Below, in pieces: positions 1,755-11,175 of a stretch of 64,000 nt of DNA (position 1 is the first letter of the stretch; each line of letters starts with the position of its first letter). A model generated the notes under the pieces. The model ran no database searches. It saw nothing but the letters and a program-made list of their open reading frames with translations, and was not told the origin of the DNA. The DNA is from Parvularcula sp. BBD 1991-13 (GTDB lineage: Bacteria > Pseudomonadota > Alphaproteobacteria > Caulobacterales > Parvularculaceae). Where the stretch lies: positions 310,001 to 374,000 of the forward strand of contig LYSZ01000001.1 in the NCBI GenBank assembly GCA_001657385.1, given 5' to 3'. Made by a program: the position numbers and the translations under genes.

Positions 1755-1785
1755 GGGCGGCGCGTTCCCCTCGAACGCGCCGCCC
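1755..1785 (-). terminator. Perfect hairpin between the lipoprotein and TonB receptor genes
   Basis: A 13-base stem (1755-1767 with 1773-1785) is perfectly complementary, with a 5-base loop. It sits just after the lipoprotein stop codon and before the receptor start. No strong T-run follows on the minus strand, so it may be a partial terminator or an mRNA-stabilising hairpin that sets the ratio of the two proteins rather than a full stop. Confidence 0.55.
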
Positions 1786-1796
1786 GCACGACCTGA

Positions 1797-4640: not shown

Positions 4641-5419
4641 AGGATAAACCCCGCAAGAGATGATTGCTATAATTGTGTAAGGCCGCGACGCCCCACGCCT
4701 CACAGCCCATGCGGGATACGCCTATAGTCATAGAAAGACAGTTCAGTGTAAGTTATATGTCAGTTTTGTTACCGGGTCTTCCGGTTGCCGGCTGAATATG
4801 GAAAAATATCATTAGATTCAGGATGCTAGATTGGAATTAGAAATAATTGCGACCGGTTGAAGATGCAGCGGCCGAGACGAAATAGGGGTTGTTGTGTCTT
4901 TTCAGCACCATCCGGCGGCGCGCGGCGCCAAGAATATGTTTACAAATAGCCCTGTAATGATTTTGCTTTTATTACTGAGAAAGTAATAAAATTTCTTCAG
5001 CTCTGCAGCTTATATGGTTAAGCTCACGCCTTGCGCGGCGCCTGCACTTTTTCTTCGGCAGTTTTCTGTTTGCGTTCGCCTGGGTTTAATCGTTAACCTT
5101 TCATGAGACGCCGATCTTGCGCCTCGATGAAATGTCCACGACGAATCGCGTCGCTGCGCCGGCGCGGTCCTGCTTCTGGACCTGTTTTCAGAATTGGGCC
5201 TTAAGGAAATGAGCCTTTAAGAAATAGGCAGTGTTTTCAGTCTTAAGTTGAATTAAGATTTTTAGGGCGCGCGCCGAATGGGCTGGGCGCGCGGCTCGGG
5301 TTTTGCTATGGCTGCGCGAATTCGGCGTTCGGAAGTTGCCTTGTCGGCGGCGCGATACGGTGGTTGGCCATGCGCTTGGCTATGCGGCTGGCAATAACGC
5401 ATTAATAAGGTGTCTCGTT
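4641..5419. other. Divergent intergenic region between the lipoprotein and gspC
   Basis: No gene is supported here. Besides the Pho-box candidate it holds a 9-base inverted repeat with a 7-base spacer (4967-4975 with 4983-4991), a 6-base inverted repeat with a 6-base spacer (TCTTAA/TTAAGA, 5241-5258), and an imperfect 15-base tandem duplication (5198-5227, 11 of 15 matching). The stretch 4740-5010 is richer in AT than its neighbours. These could be operators for the two divergent units. Confidence 0.5.
4735..4763 (-). promoter_or_regulatory. Candidate triple-heptamer Pho box upstream of the lipoprotein
   Basis: Read on the minus strand from 4763: CTGACAT, 4 bases, CTTACAC, 4 bases, CTGTCTT. 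The heptamers repeat every 11 bases, the spacing of PhoB sites (consensus CTGTCAT-N4-CTGTCAT). A -10-like TATAGG follows 8 bases later (about 4726-4721), in the position a PhoB-activated promoter without a -35 would use. The predicted transcript would start about 75 bases before the lipoprotein ATG. Confidence 0.6.
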
Positions 5420-6349
5420 TTGGCCGTTCTCGGGCGTTCTGGAAAACCGCATCGGACAGGAGCCGCCATCAGCCTGTCCGACATCCTCGCGCGGGCGGAA
5501 GGGCTCGGGGCGGCGCTGAAATCCCGCTCCGCGCCCAGGGCGGTCGAGATCGCGCTCGTCCTGGCGATCGCGGTGATTCTCGCCAGGCTCGTCATAACGC
5601 TTTTCGCGCCGCTCCCTCTGCCGCAAGGGGAGGTGGTGGCGAGCGCGCCTGCGGCTGCGGGCGCCGGACAGGCCGCCGTCAAAAGCCCGTTTCCCGTCGC
5701 CGCCGCGCCGGAGATCGCCGCCGCCGCGCCCCCGGCGAGTGAAGAGGTCGCGGAGACGACCCTCGACCTGACCCTGACCGGCGTGACCATCTGGCCCTCT
5801 CCGGAAAGCGCCTCGGCCGCGATCCGCACGCCGGACGGGCGCCAGAAACGTTTCAGCATCGGCGACGAGATCGTACCCGGCGTCACTCTTGAGGCGGTTT
5901 ACGCCGACCAGGCGATCATCGACACCAACGGCGTTCGCGAATCGCTGCGGTTTGAGTCTAAACTGAATCCGGATCAATTGAGCGACCTGCCGCAGGAGCC
6001 GATCCGGCCCCATGGACGGCGCGACCCCGATGCGCCGCCCGCCGCCGTGACCGGGGAGAGCATCGGCCAGTTGGCCTCGGTCTTGCGTGTCGCGCCGGGG
6101 ATGAACGCCGAGGGCGATCTGGTGGTGGAACTTTATGCGGCGCGCGACCGGTCGGCCTTCTCCGCGCTCGGGCTGGAGGACGGCGACCGCCTGGTGTCGA
6201 TCGACGGCTCGCCGGCGCCGTCCAATCCCGCGGCCCTGATCGAGGCGCTGAACCGGATGCAGCGCGCTGAGCGGGCCTCGATCGTTGTGGAGCGAAACGG
6301 CGAGACCGTGCCGCTTCAAGTGTCGCTGCCTGATTTGTTTGGGGACTAA
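5420..6349 (+). CDS. gspC: Type II secretion inner membrane protein GspC
   Basis: About 309 aa from a TTG at 5420, chosen because AAGG (5407-5410) sits 9 bases before it; the same frame is open back to a TTG at 5303, so the start is uncertain. A short cytoplasmic segment is followed by one membrane helix (VEIALVLAIAVILARLVITL), a proline/alanine linker, a homology-region domain (LTGVTIWPSPESASAAI through FSIGDEI) and a C-terminal PDZ domain (GLEDGDRLVSIDG). GspC links the inner membrane platform to the secretin GspD. First gene of the gsp operon, ending 5 bases before gspD. Confidence 0.85.
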   Translation: MAVLGRSGKPHRTGAAISLSDILARAEGLGAALKSRSAPRAVEIALVLAIAVILARLVITLFAPLPLPQGEVVASAPAAAGAGQAAVKSPFPVAAAPEIAAAAPPASEEVAETTLDLTLTGVTIWPSPESASAAIRTPDGRQKRFSIGDEIVPGVTLEAVYADQAIIDTNGVRESLRFESKLNPDQLSDLPQEPIRPHGRRDPDAPPAAVTGESIGQLASVLRVAPGMNAEGDLVVELYAARDRSAFSALGLEDGDRLVSIDGSPAPSNPAALIEALNRMQRAERASIVVERNGETVPLQVSLPDLFGD

Positions 6350-6354
6350 AGGGA

Positions 6355-8397
6355 ATGTCGGTGAAGGTCATCGTGAGATCCGTCATTGCGCTGGCGGCGA
6401 GCCTCGGAGCGCTCGCCGCGCCGGCGGCGGCGCAGCAAGCGGCCTGCCGCATCGAACTCAATTACGAAGACGCCGACATCCGCACGGTGGTCGACGAAAT
6501 CGCCATCCGTACGGGGCGCTATTTTGTGCTGGACCCGGCGGTGCAGGGGCGGGTGACGATCAAGTCGCCCCCCAATGGCGGCATTTGCGCCGACGAGGCG
6601 TGGGAGCTGTTCCAGGCGATGCTGCGCGCCAACGACTTCGTGGCGGTGCCGATCGGCGACCAGAAGTTCCGCATCGTGCCGATCCAGGAATCGGCGCGGT
6701 CCGCCGGGCGCGTCGGCGGCGACGGCGGCGGCCTCGACCTCGTCACGGAAATCGTCCGCCTGCGCTACGTGGACTCCCGCGAAGCGTCGGCCAATCTCGC
6801 GCAGATCATCGGCGCCAGCGGCGTCGTCAGCCCGGTGCGCAGCGGCAATTCCATCATCCTCGTCGACACCGCGAGCAACGTTCAAAGGCTGCGCAAGGTC
6901 CTCGCCGAGCTTGACCGCGACCCGACCGTGTTCCGGCGCATCGCCCTCAAGAACGCGTCGGCCGGCGACGTGGCGCGGGTGGTGAGCGACCTCGCCTCGG
7001 AGATCGTCAGCGACCAGGAAGGCGTCAATGGCGGCTTCAGCATCGCGCCGGTGGAGGCGAGCAACTCCCTGTTCGTGCGCGCCGACCCCGCCCTGATGAC
7101 CCGCATCGAGGGCGTCATCGCCGAACTTGACGCCTTCGGCGGCAACACCTCCAACCTCTCCGTTATCTATCTCAACCATGCGGACGCGGAGGAACTGGCG
7201 CCGCTCCTGACCGAGGTCGCCAACAACGCCCCCAATTCGGCCGGCGGGGAGAACGCGGCGCCGCGCGTCAACCGCGCCACGATTTCCTTTCACAAGCCGA
7301 CCAATTCGCTGATCATCAACGGCGACGCGGAGATCCAGCGCCGGCTCCAGAACATCATCGCCAAGCTGGACATCCGCCGTTCGCAGGTCCTTGTGGAAGC
7401 GATCATCGTCGACATATCCGAACGTTTGAACCGCGATTTCGGCTTCCAGTACTTCCTGACCGGAAACGGCGAAAACGGCGTGCCGTTCACGGCCACGAAT
7501 TTCCCGGCCGGCCCCAATCTCCTGCCCGCCGCCGGCGCGGCGCTTTTGCGCGGCGACGCCCTGTCCGGCGTCTTCGACAGCGACGGCGACGGGGAGGCGG
7601 ACGGGGACCTGGCGACGCCGCTGCTGGAATCCGCGCTCAACTCCCTGCTCAATCTTCAGGGCGGCACGATCGGCGGCGGCCTGGAGTTCGGCGACGGCAA
7701 CATCTTCGGCGCGATTCTCAACGCGATCGAGACGGACCGGAACTCCAACATCCTGTCGACGCCGTCGGTCCTGACCCTCGACAACCAGACCGCGCGGCTC
7801 CAGGTCGGCCAGGAAATCCCGATCACCACCGGCGAACAACTGGGCGTGGGCTTTGACAACGCTTTCCGGACCGTCCAGCGCGAGGAGGTCGGCGTTATCC
7901 TGGAGGTGACGCCGCAGATCAACGAAGGCGACGTCGTCACGCTGGAAATCACCCAGGAGATTTCCAGCATCGACGGCACCGCGACGGCGGCGGCCACGGA
8001 CATCGTCACCGACCAGCGCATCATCACGACGACGGCGCTGGTCGATAACGGTCAGGTGCTGGTGATCGGCGGCCTGATCAGCGAACAGTACGACGACATC
8101 GACAGCAAGGTGCCGTATCTCGGCGACATTCCGGGGCTGGGGGCCCTGTTCCGGACGACGTCGCGCCAGGACGAGCGGACCAACCTGATGGTGTTCATCA
8201 GGCCCACGATCATTCGCGACCCGGAGACCGCGACGCTCGCCACGCGCAAGAAGCTTGACTATATCCGCGCGCGGGAACTGTTGCGTCATGGCGGCCCGCA
8301 GGCGCCGGTGGACCGCCTGATCGACCAGGTCACCGGCGTCGACCGGCCCGAGCCGCCCCGGGAGGGGCCGAATCCGAGCATTGCGGAGGTCGAATGA
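6355..8397 (+). CDS. gspD: Type II secretion secretin GspD
   Basis: 680 aa outer membrane channel of the T2SS. A signal peptide (about 1-26, ending AAAQ) precedes the N0 domain (IELNYEDADIRTVVDEI, VQGRVTIKSP), then N1-N3 repeats and the secretin core, with the hallmark VLIVIGGL-like stretch GQVLVIGGLISE and VPYLGDIPGLGALFR near residues 565-600. An Asp/Gly-rich insertion (SDGDGEADGD) sits at about residue 410. There is no obvious C-terminal S-domain for pilotin binding. The stop overlaps the gspE start by 4 bases (ATGA). Confidence 0.97.
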   Translation: MSVKVIVRSVIALAASLGALAAPAAAQQAACRIELNYEDADIRTVVDEIAIRTGRYFVLDPAVQGRVTIKSPPNGGICADEAWELFQAMLRANDFVAVPIGDQKFRIVPIQESARSAGRVGGDGGGLDLVTEIVRLRYVDSREASANLAQIIGASGVVSPVRSGNSIILVDTASNVQRLRKVLAELDRDPTVFRRIALKNASAGDVARVVSDLASEIVSDQEGVNGGFSIAPVEASNSLFVRADPALMTRIEGVIAELDAFGGNTSNLSVIYLNHADAEELAPLLTEVANNAPNSAGGENAAPRVNRATISFHKPTNSLIINGDAEIQRRLQNIIAKLDIRRSQVLVEAIIVDISERLNRDFGFQYFLTGNGENGVPFTATNFPAGPNLLPAAGAALLRGDALSGVFDSDGDGEADGDLATPLLESALNSLLNLQGGTIGGGLEFGDGNIFGAILNAIETDRNSNILSTPSVLTLDNQTARLQVGQEIPITTGEQLGVGFDNAFRTVQREEVGVILEVTPQINEGDVVTLEITQEISSIDGTATAAATDIVTDQRIITTTALVDNGQVLVIGGLISEQYDDIDSKVPYLGDIPGLGALFRTTSRQDERTNLMVFIRPTIIRDPETATLATRKKLDYIRARELLRHGGPQAPVDRLIDQVTGVDRPEPPREGPNPSIAEVE

Positions 8398-9965
8398 ACA
8401 TGGACGGCGCACGGCAAACGCCGCCGGCGGCGCATGACGTTCCGCAGGACGCGGCGGCCGAAGCGGAGGCGGCGCCCCTGCCGGCGGCGCGGCTCGCTTA
8501 CGCTTTCGCCAAGGAACGCGGCATGCTGGTGCTCGACGGCGCGGCCCGCCCGGTCGTCATCGGCGTGCGCGGCGATCCCGATCCCTGGGCGCTGATCGAG
8601 GCGCGCCGGGCCGTGGGCGCGCCGATCCGGATCGACAAGCTGCCCGAGGACGCGTTCGAGCGCCGCCTTTCCGAAATTTACTCCGTGGAGGGCATTCCCA
8701 CCGACGATTTCGACCTCGCCAGCGACGACGCCGATCTCGCCTCCCTCGCCGAGGGCCTGCCCAAGACCGCCGACCTCCTCGACAGCGAGAACGACGCGCC
8801 GGTGATCCGGCTCATCAACGCGCTGATCGCCGAGGCGGTGAAGGTCAAGGCGTCCGACATTCACGTGGAGCCCTATGAAAAGGCGCTGTCCGTCCGCCTG
8901 CGGATCGACGGCGTCCTGCGCGAAGTATTGTCCCTGCCGGCGCGCATGACGCCGGTGCTGACCTCGCGGGTGAAGGTGATGGCGCGTCTCGACATCGCCG
9001 AAAAGCGCGTGCCCCAGGACGGGCGCATCTCCATCGCGCTCGGGGGCAAGACCGTGGACGTGCGCGTCTCCACCCTGCCGGCGCGGTTCGGCGAGCGGGT
9101 GGTGATGCGTCTCCTCGACAAGGACGAGGCGCGCCTCGATCTCGATGGGCTCGGCATGCCGGAGACGACGCTGAAGCGCTTCAAGCAGACCCTGCAACGG
9201 CCGAACGGCATCATTCTCGTCACCGGTCCGACGGGATCGGGCAAGACGACGACGCTCTACGGCGCCCTGTCGCTGCTCAACGACCCGAGCCGCAACATCC
9301 TCACCGTCGAGGACCCGGTGGAATACGCCCTGGAAGGCGTTGGCCAGACCCAGATCAATCCCAAGGTCGGCATGACCTTCGCCACCGGACTGCGCGCGAT
9401 CCTCCGTCAGGACCCGGACGTCGTCATGCTGGGCGAGATCCGCGATGTGGAAACCGCCGAGATCGCGGTGCAGGCCTCGCTCACCGGCCACCTCGTGCTG
9501 TCCACGGTGCACACCAATTCCGCGGCCGGCGCGATCACGCGCCTGCGCGACATGGGGGTGGAGCCGTTTCTCCTCTCCTCCACCGTCGCCGCGGTGTTGG
9601 CGCAGCGGCTCGTGCGCCGTCTTTGCCCGTCCTGCAAGGAACCCTACGAGGCGGACGACGCCGCGCGCCGCGTCATGGGCCTGCCCCTCGGCGCGCCGCT
9701 GACGCTGCACCGTCCGGTCGGCTGCGGGCGGTGCAACCATACCGGCTATGAAGGCCGGGTCGGCGTTTACGAACTCATCACCGTCGACGAAAAAATGAAA
9801 CGGCTGATCCACGACAACGCCAGCGAGCACGATCTCGCCGACCATGCTTTCCAGAAAGCCGACACGCTGGCGCAGTCCGGATTCCGCCATGCGCGCGCGG
9901 GCGTGACCTCGATCGAGGAAGTCATGCGCGTCGTCCGCCAGGAGGAAGAGGATGCCGGCGTTTGA
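8394..9965 (+). CDS. gspE: Type II secretion ATPase GspE
   Basis: 523 aa cytoplasmic hexameric ATPase that drives pseudopilus assembly. Walker A GPTGSGKTTT lies at about residues 277-286, an Asp box and Walker B region DPDVVMLGEIRD at about 340-352, and the His box LVLSTVHTNSAAG after it. A zinc-binding module is present with cysteine pairs CPSC (about 410) and CGRC (about 443), normal for GspE. The N-terminal N1 domain is short. Overlaps gspD by 4 and gspF by 14 bases, implying translational coupling. Confidence 0.97.
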   Translation: MNMDGARQTPPAAHDVPQDAAAEAEAAPLPAARLAYAFAKERGMLVLDGAARPVVIGVRGDPDPWALIEARRAVGAPIRIDKLPEDAFERRLSEIYSVEGIPTDDFDLASDDADLASLAEGLPKTADLLDSENDAPVIRLINALIAEAVKVKASDIHVEPYEKALSVRLRIDGVLREVLSLPARMTPVLTSRVKVMARLDIAEKRVPQDGRISIALGGKTVDVRVSTLPARFGERVVMRLLDKDEARLDLDGLGMPETTLKRFKQTLQRPNGIILVTGPTGSGKTTTLYGALSLLNDPSRNILTVEDPVEYALEGVGQTQINPKVGMTFATGLRAILRQDPDVVMLGEIRDVETAEIAVQASLTGHLVLSTVHTNSAAGAITRLRDMGVEPFLLSSTVAAVLAQRLVRRLCPSCKEPYEADDAARRVMGLPLGAPLTLHRPVGCGRCNHTGYEGRVGVYELITVDEKMKRLIHDNASEHDLADHAFQKADTLAQSGFRHARAGVTSIEEVMRVVRQEEEDAGV

Positions 9966-11175
9966 GTACGAGGCGCTTGACGTCAGCGGCAAGACCCGGC
10001 GCGGCGTTCTGTCCGCGGACAGTCAGCGCGCGGCCCGGCGGGAGCTGCGCGCGCTCAACCTGACCCCGGTCGACATTTCCGAGCCCCGTTCGGGCGGCGC
10101 GCGCAAGGCCGGCTCGAAGGGCGCGGCGAAAACGCCGCGGGTGAAACCGGGCGACCTGGTGGTGATGACGCGCCAGCTCGCCGCGCTGCTCGGCGCCTCG
10201 ACGCCGCTGGAAGAAGCGCTCAACGCCGTCTCCATGCAGACCGACAACCCGGCCGCGCGCTCGCGCATCCTCGCCGTGCGCGAACGGGTGATGGAGGGCT
10301 GGCGGTTCGCGGACGCGCTGGGCGAGGACCCGAAATCCTTCCCGGCGCTCTATCGCGCGGTGATCGCCGCGGGGGAGACCTCGGGCGATCTCGGCGGCGT
10401 CATGGGGCGGCTCGCGGAGATGCTGGAGAAGAACCGCGCCATCAGGAACAAGGCGGTCGCCTCGCTGATCTACCCCGCGGCCCTGGCGCTGGTGGCGGCG
10501 GGCGTCGTCACCGCGCTGATGGTGTTCGTCGTGCCCAAGATCATCGAGCAGTTCACCGCCTTCGACGCCGAACTGCCGTTTCTGACGCGGCTGGTCGTCG
10601 GCGTTTCGAACGGCATCGTCGATTACGGTCTTTACGCGCTTATCGCCGCCGCCGTCATCGGCGCGGGGCTCTGGCGCGCCATGAAGGAAGCGCCGGTCAG
10701 GCTGTTCGCGGACCGCCAGACGCTGCGCCTGCCCATCCTCGGGCGCCTCGGCCGGGCCGTCGACGGCGCACGCTTCGCGCGCACGCTGGCGACGCTGTTC
10801 GCCGGGGGCGCGCCCCTGCTCGACAGCCTTGTCGGCGCCCAGCGCACGGTGTCCAACAGCTATATCCGCAGCCGCCTCGACGGGACGGTCACCATGGTCG
10901 GCGAGGGGGCCTCGCTCGCCGCCTCTCTGAAGCGGGCGGGCGAGCTGCCGCCGATGCTGATCCACATGGTCGCGGCGGGCGAGCGCGCCGGCGCCCTGCC
11001 GGAACTGCTCGACAAGGCCGCGTTGCAGCTTGAGGAGGAATTCGACACCGCCTCGACCGTGGCGTTGCGTTTGCTCGAACCCATGATCATTATCGCCATG
11101 GGCGGCGCCGTGGTGGTGATCGTCCTGTCGATCATGCTGCCGATTCTGCAACTGAACGCGCTCGCCGCCGGTTGA
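9952..11175 (+). CDS. gspF: Type II secretion inner membrane platform protein GspF
   Basis: 407 aa polytopic platform protein. The start MPAFEYEALDVSGKTRRG is the classic GspF/PilC N-terminus. Two T2SSF domains are visible (about 70-190 and 270-395), each followed by hydrophobic helices (LIYPAALALVAAGVVTALM; IIIAMGGAVVVIVLSIML). Motifs AGETSGDLGGVMGRLAE and AAGERAGALPELLD are family typical. It couples GspE ATP hydrolysis to pseudopilin extraction. Confidence 0.96.
   Translation: MPAFEYEALDVSGKTRRGVLSADSQRAARRELRALNLTPVDISEPRSGGARKAGSKGAAKTPRVKPGDLVVMTRQLAALLGASTPLEEALNAVSMQTDNPAARSRILAVRERVMEGWRFADALGEDPKSFPALYRAVIAAGETSGDLGGVMGRLAEMLEKNRAIRNKAVASLIYPAALALVAAGVVTALMVFVVPKIIEQFTAFDAELPFLTRLVVGVSNGIVDYGLYALIAAAVIGAGLWRAMKEAPVRLFADRQTLRLPILGRLGRAVDGARFARTLATLFAGGAPLLDSLVGAQRTVSNSYIRSRLDGTVTMVGEGASLAASLKRAGELPPMLIHMVAAGERAGALPELLDKAALQLEEEFDTASTVALRLLEPMIIIAMGGAVVVIVLSIMLPILQLNALAAG

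Follow-up and report, generated by a model that had tools for sequence, protein, structure and literature searches.

The window, a stretch of 64,000 nucleotides of Parvularcula DNA, carries on its minus strand a gene for a large lipoprotein and, 80 bp beyond it, one for a TonB-dependent receptor (whose in-window part matches Pfam Plug at 3e-06, over the cut-off, and TIGR01782 at 4.7e-24, under it). Across the intergenic region upstream of the lipoprotein gene, a type II secretion (T2SS) operon starts divergently. Coordinates of these genes, and of the features between them with which the following is mainly concerned, are collected in Table 1.

Table 1. Features of the lipoprotein locus and its surroundings (window positions)
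Feature	Positions	Strand	Basis or remark
TonB-dependent receptor, CC0171-like, 882 aa	1..1716, on to C21:309068 beyond the window	-	full reading frame
GC-rich RNA hairpin in the gap from elpS to the TonB receptor gene	1755..1787	-	MFE -36.6 kcal/mol, z -3.4, 1/200 shuffles as good
elpS-like outer-membrane lipoprotein, 947 aa	1797..4640	-	signal peptide, lipobox LAAC, two beta-helix halves
Probable -10 region, TATAGGCG	4719..4726	-	TAGGCG 4724-4719 in conserved +10 register; TATAGG 4726-4721 overlaps
Pho-box-type unit 4, CTGTCTT, promoter-proximal	4735..4741	-	letters, PWM and relatives
Pho-box-type unit 3, CTTACAC	4746..4752	-	letters and PWM
Pho-box-type unit 2, CTGACAT	4757..4763	-	letters and PWM
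Pho-box-type unit 1, CGGTAAC	4768..4774	-	11-bp register; PWM heptamer scan
gspC, type II secretion operon, divergent from elpS, start uncertain	5462..6349	+	NF041515 1.7e-18, TIGR01713 6e-15, both under cut-off
gspD secretin	6355..8397	+	TIGR02517 6.7e-150, over cut-off
gspE ATPase	8394..9965	+	TIGR02533 3e-207, over cut-off
gspF	9952..11175	+	TIGR02120 1.4e-131, over cut-off

The lipoprotein is duplicated, as an earlier note on this DNA had it, its two halves sharing 64% identity, and a lipobox signal peptide can be read by eye from MRLPSNFRSILLACSGALALAACTQG. No Pfam or NCBIfam profile matches it over its cut-off, and a family-profile sequence search of solved structures gave no matches. 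The AlphaFold2 model, of good confidence (mean pLDDT 84.8), has beta-helix-like domains. A fold search with the whole two-domain model gave weak matches, with query-normalised TM-scores of 0.07-0.17 among the 50 matches listed, and the claim is therefore limited to the fold class, which for the best PDB matches we take to be of beta-helix type. Homologues are present in 74 of 100 genomes, Parvularcula included, the best 80 loci of 334 relatives in named public genomes extending from Marinicaulis, Henriciella, Hyphomonas and Maricaulis to SAR86, Rheinheimera, Aliidiomarina and Idiomarina. Single-unit homologues, with frames of 507-541 aa, are found in seven genomes of family f3.

A pertinent comparison is with Caulobacter crescentus, where the order elpS (CC0170/CCNA_00169)-CC0171-gspC-N is alike in that a lipoprotein gene is followed by one for a TonB receptor and lies by a type II secretion operon. 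PMC2996285 describes this cc0170-cc0171-gspC-N arrangement, a similar one in Hyphomonas neptunium, and ElpS (CC0170) as a surface lipoprotein made specifically under phosphate starvation; its text nowhere uses the term Pho box. Two further papers report that induction of P169(elpS)-lacZ needs PhoB (PMC5172544), and that the PhoB regulon includes T2SS and several TonB receptors (PMC11208175). Unlike its Caulobacter counterpart, of about 50 kDa, the Parvularcula lipoprotein is a tandem duplicate of 947 aa, and its neighbouring T2SS operon is divergent rather than collinear. Among 20 relatives' regions the TonB receptor gene follows the lipoprotein gene in all, and gspD is present in 14; the operon is collinear with the lipoprotein gene in 13 of these, and in the other one (L229) it is divergent, as in Parvularcula. 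With the receptor gene adjacent and gspC-F on the other side, the Parvularcula gene looks like one of elpS type, being likened to CC0170 by family, synteny and the paper's description.

Upstream of the lipoprotein gene the earlier note had described three heptamers with exact 11-base periodicity, CTGACAT-N4-CTTACAC-N4-CTGTCTT, and letters and spacing at 4763-4735 on the minus strand match that description exactly. A fourth unit that it had missed, CGGTAAC, extends the array in register, giving four 7-bp direct repeats with 4-bp spacers and an 11-bp period, and scores are high at spacing 11 only. If either T or C is accepted as the final base, CTGTCAT is matched at 6 of 7 positions by units 2 and 4 and at 5 of 7 by units 1 and 3. 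Scores were derived from a heptamer position weight matrix (PWM) built from the CTGTCAT consensus and applied to the 300-bp upstream region. Facing the T2SS operon, the intergenic region has no Pho-type array, its best plus-strand four-unit score being 1.5. The E. coli PhoB promoters of pstS and phoA are alike in having 7-bp direct repeats every 11 bp (PMC3465305 and PMC4415409); unlike them, the Parvularcula array has four units rather than two, the units are more degenerate and the -10 is of TAnnnn type.

Retention of the array in front of homologues was judged by comparing the best four-unit score in the 300 bp ahead of the start codon with the 99% level set by 5,512 random windows taken at those loci. 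For 97 of the 98 homologue upstreams the start chosen, by pattern, was of lipobox type. The 99% level was exceeded by 25 of 31 alphaproteobacterial, 29 of 47 gammaproteobacterial and 10 of 20 further relatives' upstreams, these being related rows rather than independent ones, with the further regions partly repeating species of the alphaproteobacterial group. Below it were 6 alphaproteobacterial (L035, L038, L039, L047, L054 and L058), 18 gammaproteobacterial and 10 further upstreams; of the seven f3 regions (L218-L224), whose single-unit homologues come closest to Caulobacter ElpS in size, 2 passed. The mean best four-unit scores at spacing 11 are 14.8, 11.2 and 10.3 for the three groups respectively; for spacings 8-10 and 12-14 the means range from -2.3 to 2.1. 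The opposite strand of 38 upstreams gives 3.4 versus 15.2.

In close relatives the pattern approximates TGTCAC-N4-CTGAAAN-N4-NNGTCAC-N4-NNNTCAN and in most cases sits some 105-145 bp ahead of the start codon, with TGTCAC/T in the place of unit 1, mostly CTGAAAN or a variant in that of unit 2 and NNGTCAC/T in that of unit 3. Units 1 and 3 in Parvularcula depart from this, CGGTAAC and CTTACAC being poorer than the units of most close relatives, as would be expected were the site ancestral and decayed, with an elpS promoter that may be only weakly PhoB-responsive. Other features pointing the same way are that a search with the canonical two-unit box misses the site, that a palindrome common upstream in relatives is absent from the Parvularcula elpS, and that the Parvularcula genome (G000) alone among the 16 of the genus that bear elpS has PstC over the cut-off. 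However, its four-unit score of 21.4 is within the 10.3-27.5 range of the 12 closest rows, and both the register and the -10 are kept, so that decay is considered unlikely.

The register extends to the -10 region. Of the 63 promoters whose array is distinct and scores above the 99% background level, 40, elpS here included, have TA at an offset of exactly 10 nt from the end of the last unit, and 23 lack it there; the 19 other offsets examined average about 2.4 each. The TATAGG that the earlier note had taken as the -10 is present, but the conserved register gives TAGGCG, and the latter is probably the -10 here, with TATAGG starting 2 nt earlier. The spacing from the last unit is that of E. coli phoA. 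In E. coli the Pho box takes over the role of the -35, and the claim that no -35 accompanies the Parvularcula array agrees with inspection by eye, in which every hexamer at 15-18 bp spacing differs from TTGACA at 3 or more of its 6 positions; the array stands in its place, with the -10 about 10 bp downstream.

As to which protein reads the array, pstS promoters are informative. Among 30 pstS-type loci (29 of relatives plus the Parvularcula one) 9 score at least 18 at spacing 11 and none does at 9, 10, 12 or 13; all 6 relatives in the genus with PstC over the cut-off, the Parvularcula genome aside, have an array at pstS, with scores of 18.8-27.9. Parvularcula's own pstS and phoU-phoB upstreams have weak two-unit matches alone (8.9 and 10.0), and none of 30 phoB loci has an array scoring at least 18. 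The pstS promoters of the genus relatives (L141-L144, L146, L148) are alike in their four-unit array of three strong units plus one of CTGAAA/CTGCAA type, but differ in that the CTGAAA-type unit is unit 3, that at elpS of relatives being unit 2. TA at +10 is not seen at those six, and is seen in L152, L153, L159 and L160. A second matrix, trained on 11 pstS promoters of relatives, picks out the elpS array in an unchanged register with a score of 20.7, which ranks second in 444 kb and is reached by 4 of 5,484 random windows, and places 22 of 30 alphaproteobacterial homologues over the 99% level, although the two matrices are not fully independent because the pstS training loci were picked with the CTGTCAT consensus. 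The Parvularcula genome encodes PhoB (TIGR02154, 354.7 bits, over the cut-off), PhoU, also over its cut-off, and a PhoR-type kinase (TIGR02966, 2.4e-86, under it).

PhoB control of the lipoprotein, as the earlier note had proposed, is well supported by the conserved register, the pstS arrays in relatives, the cross-prediction by the pstS-trained matrix and the presence of PhoU, PhoB and a PhoR-type kinase; in addition, published work has the Caulobacter gene at the equivalent locus as phosphate-specific and PhoB-dependent. The array is very probably a PhoB docking site, one that many water bacteria keep ahead of this surface-lipoprotein gene, and it is highly likely that the elpS-type promoter is activated by PhoB under phosphate shortage. 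For Parvularcula itself, we infer PhoB binding and induction. The array, its register and conservation, the relatives' pstS arrays and the synteny were computed here; the dependence of elpS on phosphate and PhoB comes from Caulobacter work by others.

A reader other than PhoB but of the same OmpR/PhoB family of response regulators, whether ChvI, CenR or an uncharacterised one, might be entertained given that many are encoded (39 PhoB-profile matches among 39 scored of 46 candidates) and that regulators of this family often have direct repeats spaced by 10-11 bp as sites. That a like array, CTGAAA-type unit included, is present at relatives' pstS, and that the Caulobacter elpS promoter is PhoB-dependent, make it quite improbable. 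Specific candidates were set aside on their published motifs: TTGC-N3-GCAA for ChvI in Caulobacter and TGA-N8-TGA for CenR, both of which differ from the array.

Simple patterns are insufficient as proof. While the exact three-unit string has a single occurrence in the 4.24-Mb genome, the loosened pattern, with up to 2 mismatches, has 6 places, that at elpS alone having 0 mismatches, versus 11 for the reversed control; the two-mismatch places are therefore noise. The canonical CTGTCAT-N4-CTGTCAT, again with up to 2 mismatches, has 20 places (control 4), and the elpS array is absent from them; it is thus a poor box by the E. coli two-unit consensus and distinctive only as a longer array. With the consensus-derived matrix its three-unit score of 18.4 was reached in 2 of 20,000 first-order Markov simulations of the 300-bp upstream, and its four-unit score in none of 20,000. 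A PWM ranking, which the earlier note had suggested, has the array second for three and four units, and seventh for two, in 444,004 bases (the window plus 20 stretches, about a tenth of the genome). That it is a chance repeat within an AT-rich intergenic stretch, for which units 1-3 bases off CTGTCAT and the yield of control places by loosened patterns could be invoked, is hardly credible with no four-unit equal in the simulations, a register kept in two bacterial classes, and the spacing and strand controls.

The best-ranked Pho-like array in those bases is elsewhere (L202 9464-9425, minus strand, C32:475463), reading CTGTCAT GGAT CTTTCAT CCAA ATGTCAC ATTA ACTTCAT, then CTCTCAG. It overlaps the start of a short frame, and palindromes of GCGCA-N5-TGCGC type follow. 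The two frames flanking it, this short one and a longer one, have no Pfam match at 0.01, and neither is a known pho gene. Within the window, the next-best separate three-unit Pho-like string after that at elpS, ATGTCGC-N4-CCGTCAC-N4-ATTTCAC at 18599-18571 on the minus strand, scores 15.1.

With PhoB as the reader, low phosphate would lead PhoR to phosphorylate PhoB, of which two head-to-tail dimers, a number suggested by the four 7-bp units, would occupy one helix face (the period being 11 bp) in place of a -35. PhoB would then hold RNA polymerase on the TAGGCG -10, which begins 10 bp beyond the array, and the transcript would comprise a leader of perhaps roughly 70 nt and the lipoprotein message. 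Its product would go to the outer membrane and there, as proposed for Caulobacter, would assist in phosphate mobilisation alongside the adjacent TonB receptor and the T2SS. What was known before is Caulobacter ElpS; what is added here is a further gene of elpS type, one whose lipoprotein is duplicated and whose PhoB-type promoter is conserved, and among the open-licence matches listed neither an ElpS Pho box nor Pst-less Parvularculaceae was seen in print. A promoter-level account of ElpS-type lipoproteins under phosphate starvation is thereby offered, from Parvularculaceae-type alphaproteobacteria to Arsukibacterium and Aliidiomarina, and a phosphate-linked function is supported for a widespread protein, the Parvularcula member of which matches no Pfam or NCBIfam profile over its cut-off.

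The tie to phosphate that the earlier note had drawn for both genes is a different matter downstream of the lipoprotein, where sharing of the control by the TonB receptor is plausible. It is in doubt due to the strong hairpin between the two genes and to CC0171 being constitutive in Caulobacter (reported as data not shown in PMC2996285). A strong stem, of differing sequence, is present in the equivalent gap of all 12 relatives folded, the shuffle control being for Parvularcula. Given that the U-run after the Parvularcula hairpin is poor, partial termination or message stabilisation is likelier than full termination, and the hairpin probably lowers or uncouples expression of the receptor.

The phosphate circuit of the family has peculiarities of its own. 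For the two transporter profiles compared, the 28 genomes in the genus include 7 with PstC over the cut-off and the 36 in the family (G000-G035, several of them incomplete) include 8, versus 23 of 24 from other families of the order; the PitA-type PHO4 profile is over it in none of the 36 and in 7 of the 24. PhoU, by comparison, is over the cut-off in 59 of the 60 and PhoB in 58, Parvularcula included. Most of these family genomes have PhoU and PhoB but neither PstC over the cut-off nor PitA. Within the genus, elpS and PstC are nearly mutually exclusive: 15 genomes have elpS without PstC (the gene being split by contig ends in G007 and G013, and G018 having a PBP_like_2 match), one, Parvularcula, has both, 6 have PstC only, 5 neither, and one has an elpS fragment (Fisher p 0.009, falling to 0.007 when the fragment is counted, uncorrected for kinship). 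A Pst-poor family with intact PhoU-PhoB would be a natural test of PhoR sensing without Pst. It may be, though we hold it doubtful, that the family circuit has been rebuilt without its usual sensor transporter, with PhoR reading phosphate by some other route, the elpS-TonB receptor locus as a main output, and a second regulator acting on GCGCA-N5-TGCGC at both phoU-phoB and elpS.

This palindrome, whose geometry resembles that of NtrC sites, lies upstream of phoU in 15 of 16 genomes of the genus, Parvularcula included (13 exact, 2 with one mismatch), at -849 to -975 from the phoB match; in Parvularcula it is at L198 9262-9276, 184 bp before phoU. Elsewhere it is so placed in 1 of 3 other rows of the family and, with one mismatch, in 1 of 11 rows from other families. 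With at most one mismatch it is also upstream of the elpS Pho array in 11 of 30 alphaproteobacterial homologues (L027-L031, L033, L034, L041-L043 and L061), versus 137 of 2,782 random windows, and is not before Parvularcula's own elpS. A Pho-specific role for it was rejected, as it also precedes a ribonucleotide reductase gene in the Parvularcula genome. In six genomes its counts are two- to fourfold those of the reversed control (57 versus 26 in Parvularcula).
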